A stretch of DNA of 34,010 nucleotides from Martelella mediterranea (GTDB lineage Bacteria; Pseudomonadota; Alphaproteobacteria; Rhizobiales; Rhizobiaceae): assembly GCF_004342225.1 (NCBI RefSeq), contig NZ_SMAR01000038.1, positions 1 through 34,010 of the forward strand. The letters are read 5' to 3'. Shown here one piece after another: positions 23,565-34,010 of the stretch. Position 1 is the first letter of the stretch. Each line of letters begins with the position of its first letter. The position numbers were made by a program, and so were the translations under genes. The notes under the pieces were generated by a model. That model was not told the origin of the DNA, did no database searches, and saw only the letters and a list, made by a program, of their open reading frames with translations.

Positions 23565-24350
23565 ATGAATTTTGCAGACATTTTTTCCCTTGAAGGCAAG
23601 ATCGCGCTGGTGACCGGCGCTTCCTACGGTATCGGCTTTTCCATCGCCTCGGCGCTGGCCGAAGCCGGTGCAACCATCGTCTTCAACGACATTAACGAAG
23701 ACTTCCTGGCCAAGGGGGTCGCCGCCTACAAGGATGCGGGTATCGACGCCAAGGGCTATATCTGCGACGTGACCGACGAGCCTGCCGTTCAGAAGATGGT
23801 CGCCCAGATTGGCGAAGATGTCGGTCCGGTCGACATTCTCGTCAACAATGCCGGCATCATCGCCCGCACGCCGATGCACGAGATGGAAGCCAAGGACTTC
23901 CGCAAGGTCATCGATATCGATCTGACGGCACCCTTCATCATGGCCAAGGCCGTGCTGCCATCGATGATGGAGCGCAATTCCGGCAAGATCATCAACATCT
24001 GCTCGATGATGAGCGAACTCGGCCGCGAAACGGTTTCGGCCTATGCCGCGGCCAAGGGCGGCCTGAAAATGCTGACGCGCAACATCGCCTCTGAATATGG
24101 CGCCTACAACATCCAGTGCAACGGCATCGGCCCGGGCTATATCGAAACGCCCCAGACCGCGCCGCTGCGCGAACCCGGTCATCCGTTCAACTCCTTCATC
24201 CTGGCAAAGACGCCAGCCAACCGCTGGGGCACGACCCAGGACCTCAAGGGCCCGGCCGTGTTCCTCGCCTCGGCAGCCTCGGATTTCGTCAACGGTCACG
24301 TGCTTTATGTCGACGGCGGCATCCTCGCCTATATCGGCAAACAGCCATAA
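23565..24350 (+). CDS. kduD: KduD-like SDR: 2-deoxy-D-gluconate 3-dehydrogenase / gluconate 5-dehydrogenase family
   Basis: Short-chain dehydrogenase, 261 aa, expected to reduce 2,5-diketo-3-deoxygluconate to 2-keto-3-deoxygluconate with NAD(P)H. The nucleotide motif TGASYGIG is at 17-24, NNAG at 94-97, and the catalytic triad is S147, Y160 and K164 (YAAAK). INICSMMSELGRETVSAY and PGYIETPQT resemble gluconate 5-dehydrogenases as much as Escherichia coli KduD, so the name rests partly on its place after kduI. Third codon positions are strongly G/C, suggesting high expression. The ribosome site is weak (AGAAAGA). Confidence 0.85.
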   Translation: MNFADIFSLEGKIALVTGASYGIGFSIASALAEAGATIVFNDINEDFLAKGVAAYKDAGIDAKGYICDVTDEPAVQKMVAQIGEDVGPVDILVNNAGIIARTPMHEMEAKDFRKVIDIDLTAPFIMAKAVLPSMMERNSGKIINICSMMSELGRETVSAYAAAKGGLKMLTRNIASEYGAYNIQCNGIGPGYIETPQTAPLREPGHPFNSFILAKTPANRWGTTQDLKGPAVFLASAASDFVNGHVLYVDGGILAYIGKQP

Positions 24351-24361
24351 CCAGACGTCTG

Positions 24362-24397
24362 GCCGGAGCGGATGCCCTTTTCCATGTCCGCTCCGGC
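24362..24397 (+). terminator. Hairpin at the end of the kdu operon
   Basis: GCCGGAGCGGA and TCCGCTCCGGC are perfectly complementary over eleven bases with a 14-base loop, 12 bases after the kduD stop. The downstream sequence TCCCTC is not a T-run, so a factor-independent terminator is not certain, but the position at the operon end supports a 3'-end role. Confidence 0.6.
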
Positions 24398-25215
24398 TCC
24401 CTCACAAATTACCAGCTGAACTTCTGCCGCGCAGGAACGTCTTTTCAGGACGCAACTCAATCCAGCCCACCGATCCAGTACTGTTTGTTCAGCAATGACC
24501 GGATATCCTGAGACGTCCTTCACACCATACGATCTGATTGATCCTGCTCGCGAGCGTATCGGTTGTCCGGATAGAACCTCTGGCGGCACCACCACAGCCC
24601 GGTGCCCGCAATATGTGAGACGGGCGGGCCTCCCTGACACAGCAAGCTGCGGCGAAAGTACACGTTTCAAAACTTCGCCACGCATTCCGGCTCCCGACAA
24701 TGCGGGAATGTCACATAGGCGGTGAAGCGCCCTTTTTGTGGGCACGGACCGTGATATGGCAATCATCTGCATAGCGACGATCTCACCGGATCAACCTTGT
24801 CCGCATCTCCACTCTCGGTAATTGTCAGCGCGCCTTTAACGATTACCATCGTTTTTTCAGGCCCTGTCCGGACCATATTCGCCGTCGCAAACGGTGACAG
24901 GCCGCCGTGCCGATAATTGAGCACATTTCCGACCCAAACACCGGCATCTTTCCCCGCAGCGCGTTCCAGTCTTGCATCCTCCGAGTGAAAATATGCGTGG
25001 CCCGTCCCCCGCAAATTGTCCTCGTCAGACACTGCACCGGCCCGGAACACGCGATTCCTGTCGTAGCTATTTTCGTCTTATTGATGGTTTGAATCGCTGG
25101 ATCTGCTTCGTTGTTTTCGTGTTCTGTATTTTTGAAATTTGATTGCGGAGGCTGGATATGATCACAACTTGCGCCCCGAGCAAGTAAAGATGGTTGCGCA
25201 GGAATGCGCAGATCT
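24398..25215. other. Stretch without a recognisable intact gene
   Basis: About 820 bases between the kdu operon and the truncated oxidoreductase hold several open frames on both strands but none with a convincing full-length family match. The best candidate is a minus-strand fragment at 24763-25050, listed separately. A frame at 24329-24772 on the minus strand runs through the kduD terminator hairpin and into kduD, so it is unlikely to be real. I see no tRNA, insertion sequence ends or direct repeats here. Confidence 0.5.
24763..25050 (-). pseudogene. Possible gene fragment, weakly cupin-like
   Basis: A frame of 95 codons from a GTG, open upstream to 25080, reads with plausible codon use. 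The segment TGPEKTMVIVKGALTITESGD resembles a cupin beta-strand pair of the form 'x-MVIxxGxLTIT', but the frame stops soon after, too early for a complete cupin, and no ribosome site is seen. I do not recognise a specific family. It may be a remnant left by rearrangement or may be non-coding. Confidence 0.25.
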
Positions 25216-25989
25216 TCAACTGCTAATTCGATCAGCGGCGTAGCGCTGCGTACGACATAACGGCAGGGCTGTACGCACGGCAGCGCCCGAAACGTGCTGG
25301 CCGAGCTTCTCCACCAGTCCCTGCGACCACGGCACGAGCTGGAAGCCCAGCCCGTCGTCAATCATGGCGAACCGGCCTCGATAGGACCCAATGTCGAACG
25401 CGCGGTAGTCGATAACCTCGCTCACGCCCTGTGCCAGCGCTTCCTCGCGTCCGAATGCGCTGCAACTGCCGGTAACGGTTGCGCCTTGCATGCGTGCGAT
25501 CTGCACCGCCAAACGCCCCACGCTTCCCAAGCATCCGGTTATCAGGACGGACTGACCAGCTCTCAGCTTCGCCTTTTCCATGAGTGCGATCCAGGCCGCC
25601 GAACCGACAACCGTCATGGCCGCCGCCTGCTCGAAAGTGACATTGGACGGCTTCAGTGCAACTGTTTTCGTGTCCGCCACGACATATTCCGCAAAAGCTC
25701 CCGCTTGCCGGATCTCGGTAGCGCCGAAGACCTCATCGCCCACCTTAAACCGCTCTACTTCCGAGCCAACGGCATCGATCACACCGGAAAAGTCATGGCC
25801 CAGGCCACGCGGAAAGTGCGAACCCGTCATCATCTTCATTTCGCCACGTCGGATCTTCCAATCCATCGGATTGACCGCTGCGGCCCTGACCTGAACGCGA
25901 ATCTGCTCCCGTACCGGTTCGGGCAAGTTCACCTCGGCAATCCGCAGCTCTTCCGGGCCACCATATTTGAGATACTGGATGCGCTTCAT
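25216..25989 (-). pseudogene. Truncated MDR oxidoreductase fused to a relaxase (DUF3363) scrap
   Basis: Residues 1 to about 203 are a medium-chain NAD(P)H oxidoreductase of the quinone reductase type: MKRIQYLKYGGPEELRIAEV, RAAAVNPMDWKIRRGEM, GHDFSGVIDAVG and the nucleotide-binding VLITGCLGSVGRLAVQIARMQGATVTGSCS. A complete member would continue to about 310. Instead, from residue 204 (near 25380) the frame reads RFAMIDDGLGFQLVPW then EKLGQHVSG, which I recognise as the C-terminal end of DUF3363-type relaxases of Rhizobiales and relatives; it ends near 25287 and the remaining 22 residues match nothing. The oxidoreductase has lost the rest of its cofactor domain and is probably inactive. The ATG at 25989 retains a plausible N-terminus. 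Confidence 0.7.
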
Positions 25990-26053
25990 GGTCGGTGCTT
26001 CTCAAACTGTTCGGCGTGGAGATGAGCGGGGAGTGGACAATCGACGGGGTTCA

Positions 26054-26428
26054 TCATCCGGCCCACCAGACCCAGATGAAGGCGGCCCCAAGCACCGCCT
26101 CTGCGACAGCCGAACGAAAGATGCCCGCACTGACACGCCGCGCCAGGAACTCGTAAAGACCAAGACCTGCCAAAAGCATGGCTGTTCCGCCCATGACCAG
26201 GCACACAGCCGACCGGATGTCCGAGGAACCGGCTGTTCGCCCGAGGAAAAACATCAGAGCGAGGCCGAGATACATCAGGCCCATCCGGCGAAACAGGATG
26301 AGCGCGCCAATGGATTGCTCGAGCCCCCACTCCTTGAGCACGCTGCCGCCGAAGACGATGAAACGGGCGCCGAGAACGATACACGCGGCCGTCATGACGA
26401 GTGCCAGTATCTCGAAGGTCAAAGCCAA
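26054..26428 (-). CDS. Small membrane protein, four predicted membrane segments
   Basis: About 124 aa, not recognised as a named family. Hydrophobic stretches FEILALVMTAACIVLGARFIVFG, GLMYLGLALMFFLG, AVCLVMGGTAMLLAGLGLYEFLA and VAEAVLGAAFIWVWWAG suggest four helices with a positively charged loop (ARRVSAG). The start is TTG; a second TTG at 26422, seven bases after GGGGAG, is the better spaced candidate. It lies 64 bases ahead of the truncated oxidoreductase on the same strand and is divergent from the AraC regulator, so the three were probably once one unit. Confidence 0.65.
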   Translation of the reverse strand: MALTFEILALVMTAACIVLGARFIVFGGSVLKEWGLEQSIGALILFRRMGLMYLGLALMFFLGRTAGSSDIRSAVCLVMGGTAMLLAGLGLYEFLARRVSAGIFRSAVAEAVLGAAFIWVWWAG

Positions 26429-26534
26429 TCTCCCCGATCGAATGGTTGCTGGACAGCGGAAGCATCGGGTTATAGGCAGGGCATATCAGACGATCTATGC
26501 TTCAGAATCCTATTTTTATTGGAGATCATCCAAA

Positions 26535-27476
26535 ATGGACCCATTATCCGATATCGTCTCGTTCCTCAGACTGCGCAGTTATCTCGTGGGCGGCTTCGAA
26601 GCGGGCGGGAACTGGTCCATCGGCTTTGATGCCTATGAAGCCATCAAGTGCTACGCCGTAACAGAAGGCGCGTGCTGGATTGCGGTCGAAGGTGCGGGTG
26701 AGCCTGTGTTTCTGCGTGAGGGCGATTGCTTCATGCTGCCGCGCGGCAGGCCGTTCCGGGTCGCCAGCGACCTGAGCCTGCCGCCGGACGATTGGCGGCG
26801 CCACTTTCTCGGCACCGAAGAAGGCGCGTTGGTGAAGCTCAACAAAGACTCAGGGGTGACGGTGCTCGGCGGCCATTTTGCACTCGCGGGGCCGCACGCC
26901 GATATGCTGCTCGGCATGCTGCCGCCAATCGTCCTCGTGCGCGGAGAAGCGGAGCGCGAGACGTTGCGCTGGGCCTTCGAGCGGATGCGGAAGGAGCTGA
27001 CCGATCTCAAGCCGGGCAGCATCCTCATCGCGCAGCAGCTCGCCTCAATGATCTTCATCAAGGCGCTACGGCTCTATCTCGATGAGAACAAGGGCACCGG
27101 CTGGCTGTTTGCGCTCTCCGACCAACGCGTGGTGGGGGCGGCCATCAAGGCGATCCATCGTGAGCCGTCGCACAGCTGGACAGTGGAAACGCTCGCCAGC
27201 GAAGTCGGCATGTCGCGCGCAAGTTTTGCGGCGCGGTTTCGGCAACTGGTCGGCGAAAGCCCGATCGAGTATCTGACGCACTGGCGAATGCTCCTCGCCG
27301 GACGCAGTCTGGAGCACGGCGAACCCATCAGCACGATTGCCCACGCCCTCGGCTACGAATCGGAAAGTGCGTTCAGAACCGCCTTCAAGCGCGTGACGGG
27401 CAACACGCCCCGCCATCACGCGCGTTTGTTTGCACAGAACAATGCCGCGAGTTTCCTCGTGCAGAACGGTACCTAG
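26535..27476 (+). CDS. AraC-family transcriptional regulator with cupin sensor domain
   Basis: 313 aa. The N-terminal half is the cupin-type sensor common in AraC regulators next to oxidoreductase genes (MDPLSDIVSFLRLRSYLVGGFEAGGNWSI, CYAVTEGACWIAVEG, LREGDCFMLPRGRPFRV). The C-terminal half has the two helix-turn-helix units: WTVETLASEVGMSRASFAARFRQLVGESPIEYLTHWRMLLAGRSL and ISTIAHALGYESESAFRTAFKRVTGNTPRHH. GGAG ten bases before the ATG at 26535 marks the start. It is divergent from the small membrane protein and the truncated oxidoreductase, which it probably controlled. Confidence 0.94.
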   Translation: MDPLSDIVSFLRLRSYLVGGFEAGGNWSIGFDAYEAIKCYAVTEGACWIAVEGAGEPVFLREGDCFMLPRGRPFRVASDLSLPPDDWRRHFLGTEEGALVKLNKDSGVTVLGGHFALAGPHADMLLGMLPPIVLVRGEAERETLRWAFERMRKELTDLKPGSILIAQQLASMIFIKALRLYLDENKGTGWLFALSDQRVVGAAIKAIHREPSHSWTVETLASEVGMSRASFAARFRQLVGESPIEYLTHWRMLLAGRSLEHGEPISTIAHALGYESESAFRTAFKRVTGNTPRHHARLFAQNNAASFLVQNGT

Positions 27477-27583
27477 AGCACGGCCGTGAGGAGCACATCG
27501 GATCGGAAGCTGGCAGTGTTTCAGGATGGATTGCCGATGGCTGCGCCTTTCCTCCGGCACCTCGTAGGTTTGAAGATCGCCTT

Positions 27584-27781
27584 TCATCCGCTCACCCCAG
27601 TCTGACAGGAACGCCAGCGCTCAGCAACCAGGAACCGCCCAGTTGGCCTGTCGTCCAGCGTGATGCCGTAGAACAGACAGCCCTCCTCGGCTTTCGTGCT
27701 AAGGCTGATCGCCTGAATGGCGCGGATGAATGCGTCGACGTCTTGCGGTTCGGTGTGGATCTACCCCATGAGAATGAGCAT
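27584..27781 (-). pseudogene. ABM-type monooxygenase pseudogene with early amber stop
   Basis: The frame begins MLILMG, then TAG (complement of 27761-27763), then continues IHTEPQDVDAFIRAIQAISL, STKAEEGCLFYGITLDD, PTGRFLVAERW before ending near SCQTGVSG. This is the start and core of an antibiotic-biosynthesis-monooxygenase/quinol monooxygenase-like small protein. The amber codon replaces a codon at position 7, and the usual C-terminal helix and strand after ERW are missing, so the gene is broken twice. It lies 16 bases after the quinone-reductase-like gene on the same strand, so it was probably co-transcribed with it. Confidence 0.7.
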
Positions 27782-27797
27782 GCCGGTCTCCTCCCCT

Positions 27798-28814
27798 TCA
27801 CTTACCAACCGTCAGCACGATCTTTCCCTGGATATGGCCTTTGGCCGCTCGTTCATGGGCCTGGCGCGCCTCGGCGAGCGGATGAGTGCTGTCGATGACG
27901 GCGCGGATCGTACCGTCATCGAGATAACGGGCCAGTTCCGTCAGTTGAGTGCCGCTGGAACGCACCTGAGTTGTGGAGACTGTGATGCCGCGCTTTTCGG
28001 CTTCACCGGCGTCCGAGAAGCCAAGCGGGTAAATCGGGAACAGGGCACCGCCGCGCTTCAGCTTGGGCAGAAAACGACCCGTTGTCGCACCACCCACCGC
28101 ATCGATGACGAGATCCAGGTCATGGGTCACGTCCTCGGGAGGAGTTTGGGTGTAGTCGATGAATTCGTCGACACCGAGGTCGCGCAACACGGCCTCATGC
28201 TTGCCTGAGGCAACGGCGATGACCCGCGCGCCATTCAGCTTCGCCACCTGCACCGCGAAATGGCCAACACCGCCCGCGGCCCCGTTGACCAGCACAGTCT
28301 TGCCCTCAAGCGGGACAGGGTGATGGGGGCCGGGTTGCAGAGGGTTTGGCTCACTGTGCCCGACATCCACCATGAACTGCCAGGCGGTCAGCAGCGACAT
28401 GGGGGCCGCGGCAGCATGGATGTGGTCGATGCCGGCGGGTTTCCTTGCAAGTTCCGTCGCTGGCACGCTGACAAACTCAGCATAGGCCTTGCTGTCCCCG
28501 ACGCTGAAAAACCGCACCATGGAATAGACTTCGTCGCCGACGGAAAAGCCCTCGACGTCCTCGGCGACCGCCTCGACTACCCCTGAGATGTCGGTGCCCA
28601 GAATAAGGGGGAAATCTACCTGCGGCCGCCATTCCGGCGGCAGGGCCTTGTAGCCGTCGCGCAGATACCAATCGGGCGGGTTGATCCCGATGGCATGGAC
28701 GCGCACCAGGACCTCGCCCGGCTGAAGCACGGGTTTCGGCGCATCTTCGTATCGCAGAACATCCGGGCCGCCGAAGGCGTGGATCCGGACGGCTTTCATT
28801 GTTTCATTCGGCAT
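27798..28814 (-). CDS. Zinc-independent MDR NADP-dependent oxidoreductase (quinone reductase type)
   Basis: 338 aa, a complete medium-chain dehydrogenase/reductase. The N-terminal GroES-like domain shows MKAVRIHAFGGPDVLRYEDAPKP, VHAIGINPPDWYLRDGY, LILGTDISGVVEAVAEDVEGFSVGDEVYSMV; the Rossmann domain has KTVLVNGAAGGVGHFAVQVAKLNGARVIAVAS, and AKGHIQGKIVLTVGK closes it. The zinc-binding cysteines of alcohol dehydrogenases are absent, as in quinone reductases. Start at 28814 follows AAGGA by seven bases; in-frame starts further upstream would run through the operator. Divergent from a TetR regulator that probably represses it; likely role is reduction of quinones or enones. Confidence 0.93.
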   Translation of the reverse strand: MPNETMKAVRIHAFGGPDVLRYEDAPKPVLQPGEVLVRVHAIGINPPDWYLRDGYKALPPEWRPQVDFPLILGTDISGVVEAVAEDVEGFSVGDEVYSMVRFFSVGDSKAYAEFVSVPATELARKPAGIDHIHAAAAPMSLLTAWQFMVDVGHSEPNPLQPGPHHPVPLEGKTVLVNGAAGGVGHFAVQVAKLNGARVIAVASGKHEAVLRDLGVDEFIDYTQTPPEDVTHDLDLVIDAVGGATTGRFLPKLKRGGALFPIYPLGFSDAGEAEKRGITVSTTQVRSSGTQLTELARYLDDGTIRAVIDSTHPLAEARQAHERAAKGHIQGKIVLTVGK

Positions 28815-28869
28815 GGCTTTGTCCTTCGAAGGCAGGCGTGCTATAGCTGGAGTACTGCCCCGCATTATG

Positions 28870-28905
28870 TGGAGCGCGGCACCGTTTAAACGGCGCACCA
28901 CTCCA
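28870..28905. promoter_or_regulatory. Palindromic TetR operator between MDR gene and its regulator
   Basis: A perfect 12-base palindrome CCGTTTAAACGG (28882-28893) is extended by GC on both sides with one mismatched pair, and flanked symmetrically by TGGAG (28870-28874) and CTCCA (28901-28905), both 15.5 bases from the centre. It lies in the divergent promoter, 17 bases before the TetR start, where a dimeric repressor could block both genes. Confidence 0.7.
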
Positions 28906-28921
28906 TTTGTCAAGTGATATC

Positions 28922-29500
28922 ATGAGATCAGACGCCCGAAAGAATTACGACCACATCCTCGCCGTCGCCCGCGACCTCCTTTCCGGGGACGGCGCCGATG
29001 CGTCGCTGCGTGACATTGCCCGCAAGGCCGGCGTTGGCGATGGAACGCTGCATCGCCACTTTCCCACGCGCGAAGCCCTGCTGGAGGCCTTGCTCCGCAC
29101 GAGCTTCGACGCGTTGAGCGCGCGGGCGGACGAACTGGCGCAGTGCGAAGCGGCCGACGAAGCGCTGTTGACATGGGTGCGCGAGGCGATTGCGGTGACG
29201 CACAGCTACCAGGGCGTCATCGCGCCGATGGTGGCCGCGATCGCCGACGAAAATTCCGCCCTGCATTCCTCATGCGTCGATCTGCGCCAGGCGGGGGCGG
29301 TGCTTCTCAAGCGGGCGCAGGCCAGGGAACTGGCGCGTCAGGACATGGATGGCAATGATCTGTTCGCGCTGATCAGCGCCCTGGCCTGGCTTGCCGACCA
29401 GCCACCGCTTGTCCCGCGGGCCGATCACCTGTTCGACATCATATCGGACGCCATTCTCCTGAGGCGGCCCGGCGGGGTCCCGGAAAACCAGCGCGTATAA
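28922..29500 (+). CDS. TetR-family transcriptional regulator
   Basis: About 192 aa. N-terminal helix-turn-helix: RKNYDHILAVARDLLSGDGADASLRDIARKAGVGDGTLHRHFPTREALLEALL; the C-terminal ligand domain matches the group of small TetR regulators found next to oxidoreductases (LTWVREAIAVTHSYQGVIAPMVAAIADENSALHSSC, LISALAWLAD). A TTG at 28907 is in frame but the ATG at 28922 gives the usual length; the ribosome site is weak. Divergent from the quinone-reductase-like gene with a strong operator in between. Confidence 0.92.
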   Translation: MRSDARKNYDHILAVARDLLSGDGADASLRDIARKAGVGDGTLHRHFPTREALLEALLRTSFDALSARADELAQCEAADEALLTWVREAIAVTHSYQGVIAPMVAAIADENSALHSSCVDLRQAGAVLLKRAQARELARQDMDGNDLFALISALAWLADQPPLVPRADHLFDIISDAILLRRPGGVPENQRV

Positions 29501-29527
29501 GCTGCCTGAGAAGATTTGCCCGGCGAC

Positions 29528-29577
29528 TAGAGCCATTCCGCGTTTCACGGAAACGAGAAAAGGCTCTATCTCTTTGT
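29528..29577 (+). terminator. Palindromic unit with T-run between convergent genes
   Basis: TAGAGCC (29528-29534) pairs with GGCTCTA (29562-29568), enclosing a second hairpin TTCCG-CGTTTCA-CGGAA (29536-29552); a T-rich run TCTCTTTGTTTTT follows. It probably ends the TetR transcript. The form (GAGC ends around a TTCCG/CGGAA core) resembles palindromic units scattered between genes of Rhizobiales genomes; that likeness is from memory. Confidence 0.6.
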
Positions 29578-29613
29578 TTTTACGCAATTCCGGACGGTGA
29601 ACCGGTGTCCACT

Positions 29614-30048
29614 TCACCTGTAATTGCTTTCGTCGGGCTCATGTGAGGGACCCGCAGCGCCTTGCGGATCGGCCGCGCGATAACGCAGCCCGTCAACCAG
29701 AAGCGCGACCAGCCGGCGCACGGCGGCTGGATTGCCGTCGCTTGACGGCATGCACAGGCTCGCCACCGCGCGCAGGAGATCATAGGGATTTGCGTCGGGG
29801 CGTATTTCACCGGCGGTGACGGCAGCATCGAGCAATCTTTGCAGCGCAGGCTCGAACCGGCTGTCGAAATAGGCCGGCAAGGCCTCGAACGCCGGGTCGC
29901 CCGAATGAAGCGCGGCGGCGAGCCCGCGCTTGGCAACGATGAAGTCGACAAAGCGCTGCAACCACCGTTCGAGCGCTTCTTCGGGAGGATAGGCTTGCGG
30001 CAAGCCGGCTGCGACGTCCTGCGGGGCGATCTGCGTGATCCGGAGAGC
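29614..30048 (-). pseudogene. TetR-family remnant lacking its DNA-binding domain
   Basis: The frame reads ALERWLQRFVDFIVAKRGLAAALHSG, FEPALQRLLDAAVTAGEIRPDANPYDLLRAVASLCMP and VRRLVALLVDGLRYRA, the C-terminal ligand domain of a TetR regulator. The N-terminal helix-turn-helix, about 60-70 residues, is absent: the frame is closed by TAG at 30049-30051 and the upstream bases instead carry fragments of other genes on the opposite strand. A TTG at 30003 could still start a 129-residue protein, which could not bind DNA on its own. Confidence 0.65.
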
Positions 30049-31824: not shown

Positions 31825-32230
31825 ATGGGCTGCATAGCGTCTAGCCTCCGGGGTTGCCGTACTGCCCACCAGAGTGACTGAAAGGGGACGGCTAGACATA
31901 GCTATATTCCAAGTCTGCCTCGCGCTCGGCTTTACTTGCAGCTGCAGATCTAATTGGATGATCGTAACCGAATACCATATCAGTCAGCTTTGCTCGCTTC
32001 TTCCCCTAGGACTTCGTTGCACATGGTCGGCGGGCAACAACAGGCATCGCCTCAGCGATCAACGACACGTCTTCTTCCTCGAGCTGGCGCTTTGTACCAC
32101 GCATCGCGGTGCCCAACGGGAGTCGTGGTCGCGTGTCAGACAGGTTGGTGGAAGGCCAAATTATGCATTCTTTGGTAATGACAGGCCGTTTGGGCGAAAG
32201 GCAGTTCCTCGCCCCGGCGGAACTGCGGCT
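31825..32230. other. Intergenic stretch without a clear gene
   Basis: About 400 bases between the azoreductase hairpin and the convergent TetR stop. Plus-strand frames have no family resemblance. On the minus strand, a frame from an ATG at 32104 reads MRGTKRQLEEEDVSLIAEAM, then meets TAG at 32006-32008 and continues open for 37 codons to 31892. It may be a small decayed gene, but no ribosome site or family is apparent. No repeats or insertion-sequence ends were seen. Confidence 0.4.
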
Positions 32231-32785
32231 TTACGCTGTCAACGTGCGAACCTCATCAAAGACAAGCTGGACCTGTTGTCGGAAGTCACCACCGCCATCC
32301 AGCCAAGCCTCGAAGGCTTTGCCGAACGCGGCCATGCCGAGCTGCGCTGCCAGAAGGGCCGAGGCGTATGAAAGCCCCCGTTCGTTCAAGGCGCCGGCAA
32401 GGGCATGGCTTAAGGCCATGGCTTTCGTGAGTTCGCGCTCTCGCAAAGCTGGACTGGCGGCGATCGCTGCTCGCCGCGCCTCTGCCAGATCACCGTTAGC
32501 GGTCATGATCTTGTCTGTCGCCTCAAATGCTCGCCGAAGCGTCGCCCATGTTCCGAGCGTCGCAGGACTATCCTTTACGGCCCTGATCAGAACGGCGCTC
32601 AATTCCTCCTGACCATCAAACAGCACTTCGCGCTTGTCAGGAAAGTGGCGGAAGAACGTGCGTTCGGTGACGCCTGCCCGCTCAGCAATCTGGGCGGCGG
32701 TCGCCTGTTCATAACCGACCAGTCCGTACAATTCCAACGCTGCCTTTTGCAACCGGCGGCGCACCTTTTCGCGATCACGTGGCAT
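32231..32785 (-). CDS. TetR/AcrR-family transcriptional regulator
   Basis: 184 aa. The helix-turn-helix is canonical: KVRRRLQKAALELYGLVGYEQATAAQIAERAGVTERTFFRHFPDKREVLF, followed by a helical ligand domain of the kind with TLRRAFEATDKIM and ASPALRERELTKAMALSHALAGAL. ATG at 32785 gives the expected N-terminus MPRDREKVRRRL. It is divergent from the last oxidoreductase gene; the region between carries a very strong double palindrome, its probable operator. Confidence 0.94.
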   Translation of the reverse strand: MPRDREKVRRRLQKAALELYGLVGYEQATAAQIAERAGVTERTFFRHFPDKREVLFDGQEELSAVLIRAVKDSPATLGTWATLRRAFEATDKIMTANGDLAEARRAAIAASPALRERELTKAMALSHALAGALNERGLSYASALLAAQLGMAAFGKAFEAWLDGGGDFRQQVQLVFDEVRTLTA

Positions 32786-32795
32786 TTCACCTCTT

Positions 32796-32833
32796 GTCAG
32801 TCACTGACGATACGATTATCGTCAGTGACTGAC
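32796..32833. promoter_or_regulatory. Double TetR operator in a 38-base inverted repeat
   Basis: GTCAGTCACTGACGAT (32796-32811) and ATCGTCAGTGACTGAC (32818-32833) are perfect reverse complements separated by six bases. Each arm itself contains a 13-base palindrome with one central base (GTCAGT-C-ACTGAC and GTCAGT-G-ACTGAC), so two dimer sites lie 25 bases apart, centre to centre. It lies 11 bases before the TetR start and 70 before the oxidoreductase start. Confidence 0.8.
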
Positions 32834-32902
32834 TATACCACTATGGCTGATCCGCACAACCCGTTTCGGCCGCACGTTTGATCGGCCAACCTGGAGAAGA
32901 CG

Positions 32903-33868
32903 ATGCCAGATACCCAAGAAACGAATATGCGCGCGCTGCGCTTTGACAGTCACGGCGAATGGTCGGAGGTGCTGCATCTTGTCGACGCGCCGGTCCCGGC
33001 GCCGGGGGCGAACCAGATCCGTATCAAGGTCCATGCCTGCGCCCTCAATCCGATGGACTGGGTGCTGTGCCTCGGATTGATGCCGGGTCCGCTGCCGGGC
33101 GGGATCGGGCTCGACGTATCCGGAGAGGTGGAGGCCATCGGCGAAGGCGTGACCAACGTCAAGATCGGCGACAACGTGTTCGGCGTTCCCGACTATCTCG
33201 GTTTTCCAACCGCCGGCGTGGCAGAATCCGCGGTCCTGTCGGTGTGGGAACCCGTTCCTGCGGGTCTGGATATGCTCGCAGCGGCGACCTTGCCGATGGC
33301 CGTGGAAACAGCCATGCGAAGTCTCGACCTCCTCGGCGTCTCGTCGGGCCAGACGTTGCTGGTCAACGGTGGCGGAACGATGGTCGGCTTTGCGGCAGTT
33401 CAGATCGCGCTCGCGCGCGGCGCGCGCGTCATTGCGGCCGCTGGCAAGACTTTCGAAAAGGAACTGCGCGGGTTCGGCGCCGAGGTCACGCCCTATGGCG
33501 AAGGCCTGGTCTCGCGCGTGCATGAAATAGCTGGCGGCAAGGTGGACCGGGTGCTGCAAACCGCCCTCGCCCCGGGCCAGCTCCACGACTTTATCAAGAT
33601 CGTCGATGGCGAGCCCAAACATGTCATGAGCATCACCGACTTCGACGACGAAGGTCTCGGGATCAAGACCACGGGTCGCGAGGAGGATCTGGTCCCTCGC
33701 TACGACGCCCTGAGTTCCTATGCGCAGCTTGCTGCGGAGGGGCGCTTCGTTATTCCCGTCGCGCGCACCTTTGGCCTGGATCAATGGCGTGAAGCACTTG
33801 AACTGTGCCACTCCGGACACGCGCACGGCAAGCTTATGATCCTGCCGGCTCAGGGCAACGCCAGCTAA
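32903..33868 (+). CDS. MDR NADPH:quinone reductase-like oxidoreductase
   Basis: 321 aa, complete. GroES-like domain: MRALRFDSHGEWSEVLHLVDAPVPAPGANQIRIKVHACALNPMDW, GLDVSGEVEAIGEGVTNVKIGDNVFG; Rossmann domain: GQTLLVNGGGTMVGFAAVQIALARGARVIAAAG, where GGGTMVG departs from the usual GAAGGVG; the C-terminus is SGHAHGKLMILPAQ. No zinc ligands. A second ATG (MRALRF) 24 bases downstream could be the start, but GGAGAAG lies ahead of the first. It is probably repressed by the divergent TetR and induced by a small electrophile or drug. Confidence 0.92.
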   Translation: MPDTQETNMRALRFDSHGEWSEVLHLVDAPVPAPGANQIRIKVHACALNPMDWVLCLGLMPGPLPGGIGLDVSGEVEAIGEGVTNVKIGDNVFGVPDYLGFPTAGVAESAVLSVWEPVPAGLDMLAAATLPMAVETAMRSLDLLGVSSGQTLLVNGGGTMVGFAAVQIALARGARVIAAAGKTFEKELRGFGAEVTPYGEGLVSRVHEIAGGKVDRVLQTALAPGQLHDFIKIVDGEPKHVMSITDFDDEGLGIKTTGREEDLVPRYDALSSYAQLAAEGRFVIPVARTFGLDQWREALELCHSGHAHGKLMILPAQGNAS

Positions 33869-34010
33869 ATGCATGTCGACGCGAGGAATTTGAGATGGTT
33901 CCCTTCCAAGGAAGGTGTCCGTCGTCGAATGATTATGGACAGAATGGGTTCTGGCTATCAGGAGGGTCTGGCTCGTCTGATTTGTTGATTTAAGCGGCGT
34001 TTGCGTGATG
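33869..34010. other. Terminal stretch, no gene recognised
   Basis: The last 142 bases contain short frames only. CCTTCC-AA-GGAAGG (33904-33917) is a small inverted repeat. Codon choice and lower GC differ slightly from the preceding gene. Whether another gene starts beyond the window edge cannot be told. Confidence 0.3.

Follow-up and report, generated by a model that had tools for sequence, protein, structure and literature searches.

What kind of event produces an open reading frame that passes without a stop from an MDR oxidoreductase into a relaxase, and does such a frame still encode a working protein? Both questions are raised by a locus in the window (the whole stretch of DNA analysed, namely all 34,010 bp of contig C38, from a 105-contig draft genome of 4.30 Mb). 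Our answer, with a probability of about 0.87, is that decayed integrative-element DNA left a scar here, in which the fused ORF arose by chance as a pseudogene. The features of the locus are:

23565-24350, plus strand: SDR oxidoreductase gene, the last gene left of the scar, adjoining a KduI/IolB-family gene
24353-25135: stretch in which four ORFs were tested, none with a Pfam match below E 0.05
25136-25243, plus strand: relic similar to certain large serine-recombinase genes at their 3' end (its peptide, ...LRPEQVKMVA...IRSAA, runs up to a stop)
25193-25288: segment common to a scar in G011, a genome of the same genus, at 85% identity
25216-25989, minus strand: fused ORF of 257 aa (MDR residues 1 to about 206, a relaxase piece at about 204-235, and about 22 antisense residues)
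25283-25288: second join, at which the relaxase scrap meets the relic; in G011 other DNA stands between the same segments
25283-25377, minus strand: scrap left from a relaxase gene of the DUF3363/RlxS-like kind (about positions 326-359 of 375 in the PF11843 profile)
25368-25377, minus strand: 10-bp tract alike in both parent genes, the MDR/relaxase join (from the overlap of homology ranges, alignments and a chance estimate)
25368-25989, minus strand: what is left of an MDR oxidoreductase gene, its 5' two thirds (from blastn to G031, G006, G009, G001 and G005, protein alignment and Pfam ADH_N)

Composition of the fused frame and its first join

An earlier note on this DNA described 25285-25989, the first 235 residues of the ORF, as an open frame running from an MDR oxidoreductase into the C-terminal segment of a DUF3363-type relaxase, and Pfam, NCBIfam and blastn agree with that description. 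The whole ORF matches ADH_N (4.8e-18, residues 28-114, profile positions 3-103 of 104), and its first 202 residues alone return MDR domains plus one family at chance level (Pfam, E 0.08). A complete MDR protein, with a GroES-like and a nucleotide-binding domain, is not encoded, as ADH_zinc_N is matched only at profile positions 2-46 of 129 and under its cut-off. The MDR families of NCBIfam matched outside the tail all score under their cut-offs, the best being the PIG3-type quinone oxidoreductase model. The first ~206 residues are like those of other MDR oxidoreductases (65-67% identity over the alignment with four relatives), but the last ~105 residues of those relatives are missing. In five relatives the gene has 310-311 aligned codons, and one of these copies (G001) carries an internal stop.

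The tail is of different origin. PF11843 (DUF3363) matches the whole ORF at 29.5 bits, above the curated Pfam cut-off of 28.4 bits, through residues 203-237; searched by themselves, the last 55 residues find PF11843 (6.4e-8, 32.5 bits) and no other Pfam family up to E 10. In both searches the match is confined to profile positions 325-359 of 375. The NCBIfam model relax_RlxS also finds the tail (2.4e-5, 23 bits), far under the model's cut-off of 850 because the match spans just 34 residues. The one outcome that the earlier note held would overturn its reading, that residues 204-235 are an ordinary MDR C-terminus, is ruled out by the alignment, in which five relatives continue with different MDR sequence. 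An N-terminal nuclease domain is the defining part of a relaxase. The frame upstream of the scrap is MDR sequence, in which Pfam finds no relaxase domain, and the relaxase-derived part is a gene fragment rather than a relaxase.

Two details of the earlier description need amending. The name of the relaxase segment was right, but the piece is only ~95 bp (~31 codons) long, is broken at both ends and stops before the relaxase's own C-terminus: full-length relaxases run ~19-21 residues past ...GQHVSG (or variants of it), and the window diverges there, at about 25283. Likewise, the ORF does contain the relaxase stretch, but continues ~22 residues beyond it into other DNA, where it is read as the antisense of the relic. 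The frame is open across both joins and strings together three unrelated sequences in one chimeric ORF.

The first of these joins can be placed closely. In blastn, the window DNA is 77-83% identical to the MDR genes of five relatives, and this homology ends at 25368 in four genomes and at 25360 in G009. Relaxase homology ends at 25377 or 25378 in all ten relaxase loci compared. The two homologies thus stop at opposite edges of a 10-bp tract, which bears out the earlier proposal that the join is a recombination or deletion endpoint. By eye, the tract is identical at 9-10 of its 10 positions in most MDR and relaxase relatives, these relatives standing in for the true ancestors. When the MDR gene of one relative (L004) was compared with each of four relaxase loci and their flanks, in 200,000 draws each, similarity of at least 10 bp with at most one mismatch occurred at 0.047-0.063% of random position pairs. 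A short similar tract at a join is the usual mark of illegitimate recombination, and the join at 25368-25377, as far as its sequence tells, fits such an event. The missing part of the MDR gene was not found elsewhere in the window (best match E 0.12).

Segment 25230-25430 matched 65 of 297 family genomes (its own included) in a search whose query had a short MDR portion and which missed most MDR-only relatives; most relaxase matches stop at 25377, some earlier. Matches extend more than one base past 25377 in three genomes, by 5 bases in G067 and G095 and by 31 in G100. The last was considered as a possible carrier of the join and proved to be plain relaxase over 235 open residues. Among 296 other family genomes, a sample in which at most two candidates were scored per genome, none showed the MDR/relaxase join.

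Substitution rates in the MDR remnant

The result that speaks most against a long-dead pseudogene is the rate of substitution. The dN/dS of the MDR remnant against five relatives is 0.13-0.22, compared with 0.17-0.30 among the relatives themselves (10 pairs, 203 codons). The first range is no higher than the second, so that no decay is measurable. The truncation may be recent, or the fragment may still be under constraint; a recent truncation explains the values equally well. The G001 copy of the same MDR gene (G001:C2, L006) has an in-frame stop, an independent loss, and the gene can therefore be lost.

One could accordingly propose that the fused ORF is a working protein, a truncated MDR enzyme with a borrowed tail that is expressed and kept by selection. 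The open frame over both joins and the low dN/dS agree with this, as does the position of the relaxase motif GRFAMIDDG, which sits where MDR proteins have GRFDVIFDTAG. We nevertheless consider it improbable, given that ~105 C-terminal residues are gone, that the ORF ends in ~22 residues read antisense to the relic, and that none of the 296 other family genomes sampled showed the join (at most two candidates per genome; one doubtful match checked). A more specific version, in which a relaxase C-terminal strand replaced a strand of the MDR nucleotide-binding domain and the shortened oxidoreductase-like protein has been expressed and maintained by selection, is a shade more doubtful still; if true, it would be a case of a new protein born from mobile-element debris. 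Structure prediction of the fusion from five sequences gave a mean pLDDT of 36.7, too poor to judge either way.

The second join, the relic and the surrounding gene blocks

The reading of the locus as a scar draws on a second genome. In G011 a relaxase scrap is broken at the same 3' point as in the window, is followed by ~150 bp containing an MFS-transporter-like piece (MFS_1, E 3.7e-5, under the cut-off), and then the match to 25193-25288 resumes. The same 3' break together with the shared segment means that the two scars are related. Either the window lost the MFS piece or G011 gained it. On its other side the G011 relaxase piece extends ~34 bp further than that of the window. It lies between a tyrosine integrase adjoining a Dus gene, ~630 bp away, and a TetR-MDR pair at a distance of ~365 bp. 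As this pair shares 90% identity with window 32208-33867, it probably once belonged to one island with the scar; in the window the two now stand 6.8 kb apart. The MDR block of the window is absent from the matches listed for G011. The G011 locus (L155, G011:C1:2430000-2446000) holds the Dus gene, the tyrosine integrase, a mosaic of gene scraps, the TetR-MDR pair and a heavy-metal P-type ATPase, and is likely an island.

The related scar also bears on whether the join is real. False joining of unrelated sequences is conceivable in a draft of 105 contigs, and this contig has a dispersed repeat at its end. Apart from the scrap, PF11843 has no match in the genome, which makes misassembly unlikely, as no second copy was found that could have been mis-joined. 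The closer end of the contig is 8.6 kb away from the join, and G011 too has the scrap together with part of the relic. We give an assembly artefact very little credence. The repeat in question is ~95 bp long (33916-34010), with copies on contigs C88, C24, C65 and C59 of the same genome and in other genomes, and may have ended the assembly.

The relic at 25136-25243 has no Pfam match, and its tail peptide gives a tblastn E of 0.03. Its motif stands at the end of a long frame with a Recombinase domain in 4 of 18 loci, three of which also have a Resolvase domain; the fourth (L080) is cut by the end of the locus and has no Resolvase, with a zinc ribbon just under the cut-off. In the remaining 14, where the frames were tested in part, no recombinase frame is shown. 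In the window itself neither domain is present, and what there is of a large serine recombinase is a relic like its 3' end. From these sequence resemblances we infer a serine-recombinase origin for the relic. Similar sequence turns up in other Alphaproteobacteria. In the family sample, 24353-25292 was matched over some portion in 9 of 246 other genomes: eight matches fall in or near the relic, and that of G266 at the far left end only; six plasmid records matched 25090-25300. The idea that 25136-25240 encodes a widespread protein was dropped, as plasmids gave no tblastn match up to E 1, and a phage origin of 24330-25400 was likewise rejected, there being no match in a phage collection up to E 0.01. 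Left of 25102, besides itself, only one match of ~36 bases was found in 247 family genomes. Part of 24766-25050, minus strand, is weakly like cupin-type 'ethanolamine utilization' proteins (30-39% identity, best E 0.01, nine plasmid records), and is perhaps another gene scrap.

A sequence on contig C6 of the same genome is 84% identical to the relic over 64 bp, and holds 18 bases identical (18/18) to the 3' ends of tRNA-Met on C79 and C82; a fourth exact copy of the 18 bases, on C64, lies in no tRNA. The frame on C79 is a serine recombinase, and that on C82 is very like it in sequence. Both frames (L095 and L096) are long, and their 3' ends run into tRNA-Met genes on the opposite strand. This suggests that relic-type sequences, the window copy perhaps among them, come from the ends of integrative elements. 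The tRNA-Met match raised the relic as an attachment site, an idea we set aside: the window copy is degenerate and no bounding site is shown. The window contains no tRNA or known RNA, and no attachment sites bounding an element are established at the scar. The presence of this recombinase-tail-like relic ~125-230 bp from the join, and the 18 bases shared by its C6 relation with tRNA-Met 3' ends, would favour site-specific insertion of a conjugative or integrative element into the MDR gene, followed by decay in place with the join as the old attachment site, but the DNA joined to the MDR gene is relaxase coding sequence and not a recombinase end, the rest of the MDR gene is missing from the window, and G011 has the scrap while its listed matches lack the MDR block, all of which makes such an insertion most unlikely.

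Right of the scar come the MDR remnant, an AraC/cupin regulator, and then genes of MDR, TetR, LysR and flavodoxin-fold type. Of the ORFs near the scar, ten were tested (eight right, two left); they belong to metabolic or regulatory families, one having no family, and among them there is no conjugation family, nor any integrase, T4SS or coupling-protein family that would mark an ICE. Elsewhere in the genome, T4SS-DNA_transf has one match (C24:468-866, 24.5 bits, cut-off 20.1). The earlier note's link to mobile DNA holds, but its evidence is the scar itself and the patchy blocks that flank it; in the scar, it is the relaxase scrap and the recombinase-tail-like relic, both partly common to G011 near an integrase.

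The flanking blocks differ in distribution. Among the matches listed, the kduI-SDR block has strong matches (81-88%) in 5 of 12 other genomes of the genus (G004, G007, G008, G010, G012) and the MDR-AraC block (81-84%) in 4 of 12 (G001, G005, G006, G009), with weaker or repeat-type matches in all 12. The two sets of strong matches do not overlap; the window's own genome alone has both, with the scar between them. In G006 and G005 (L139, L141) the MDR-AraC block (window 25368-29530) lies inverted inside the MDR/TetR pair, which is contiguous in the window, and in G006 ~330 bp (window 28673-29006) occur on both sides of the block. Window 29527-29628 is a dispersed repeat of ~100 bp, with copies of up to 97% identity in at least 11 of the 12 other genomes and, among the matches listed, less similar copies at several places in its own.

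A proposed history and comparison with known elements

The scar most likely marks the border between decayed integrative-element DNA and chromosomal genes, and between patchily inherited blocks. In the history we favour, mobile DNA would first have been reduced to a broken RlxS-like relaxase piece beside a relic like a recombinase 3' end. This remnant would then have been joined end to end with the MDR gene, by illegitimate recombination or deletion using ~10 bp of similarity. The join would have removed the last third of the MDR gene (~105 codons) and, with it, presumably its function, the reading frame being kept by chance. The locus shows, on a small and clean case, how the decayed DNA of a conjugative element can mark where patchily inherited gene blocks meet. 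It is also a caution for annotation, as a pipeline may call the chimeric ORF a DUF3363 protein or an oxidoreductase.

The source of the scrap can be compared with known elements. On plasmids of Mesorhizobium jarvisii and Rhodopseudomonas, traG comes directly after a full relaxase that carries its segment, and in both DUF736, S26-peptidase and transglycosylase genes precede the relaxase; trb genes follow in the Rhodopseudomonas record. These full relaxases score 582-593 bits against the RlxS model, under its cut-off of 850, and RlxS-like is therefore the safer name. The window scrap matches the DUF3363 C-terminal segment of the RlxS relaxase (MOBP1) of ICEMlSym-type elements. According to PMC8627217, the shared core of these elements includes rlxS, traF, traG, transglycosylase and trb genes, and the genes around the full-length relatives of the scrap are ones named in that core. 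At the scar, by contrast, there are ~31 codons only, and tests of ten neighbouring ORFs brought up neither a traG nor a trb family.

A parallel to the scrap itself is the ~100-bp remnant of the traR1 3' end that Lotus ICESyms carry, as described in PMC8627217. Unlike that remnant, the window scrap has no intact element around it and is fused in frame to a chromosomal gene. The two are alike in being pieces of an element gene, ~100 bp long, that record a past deletion.
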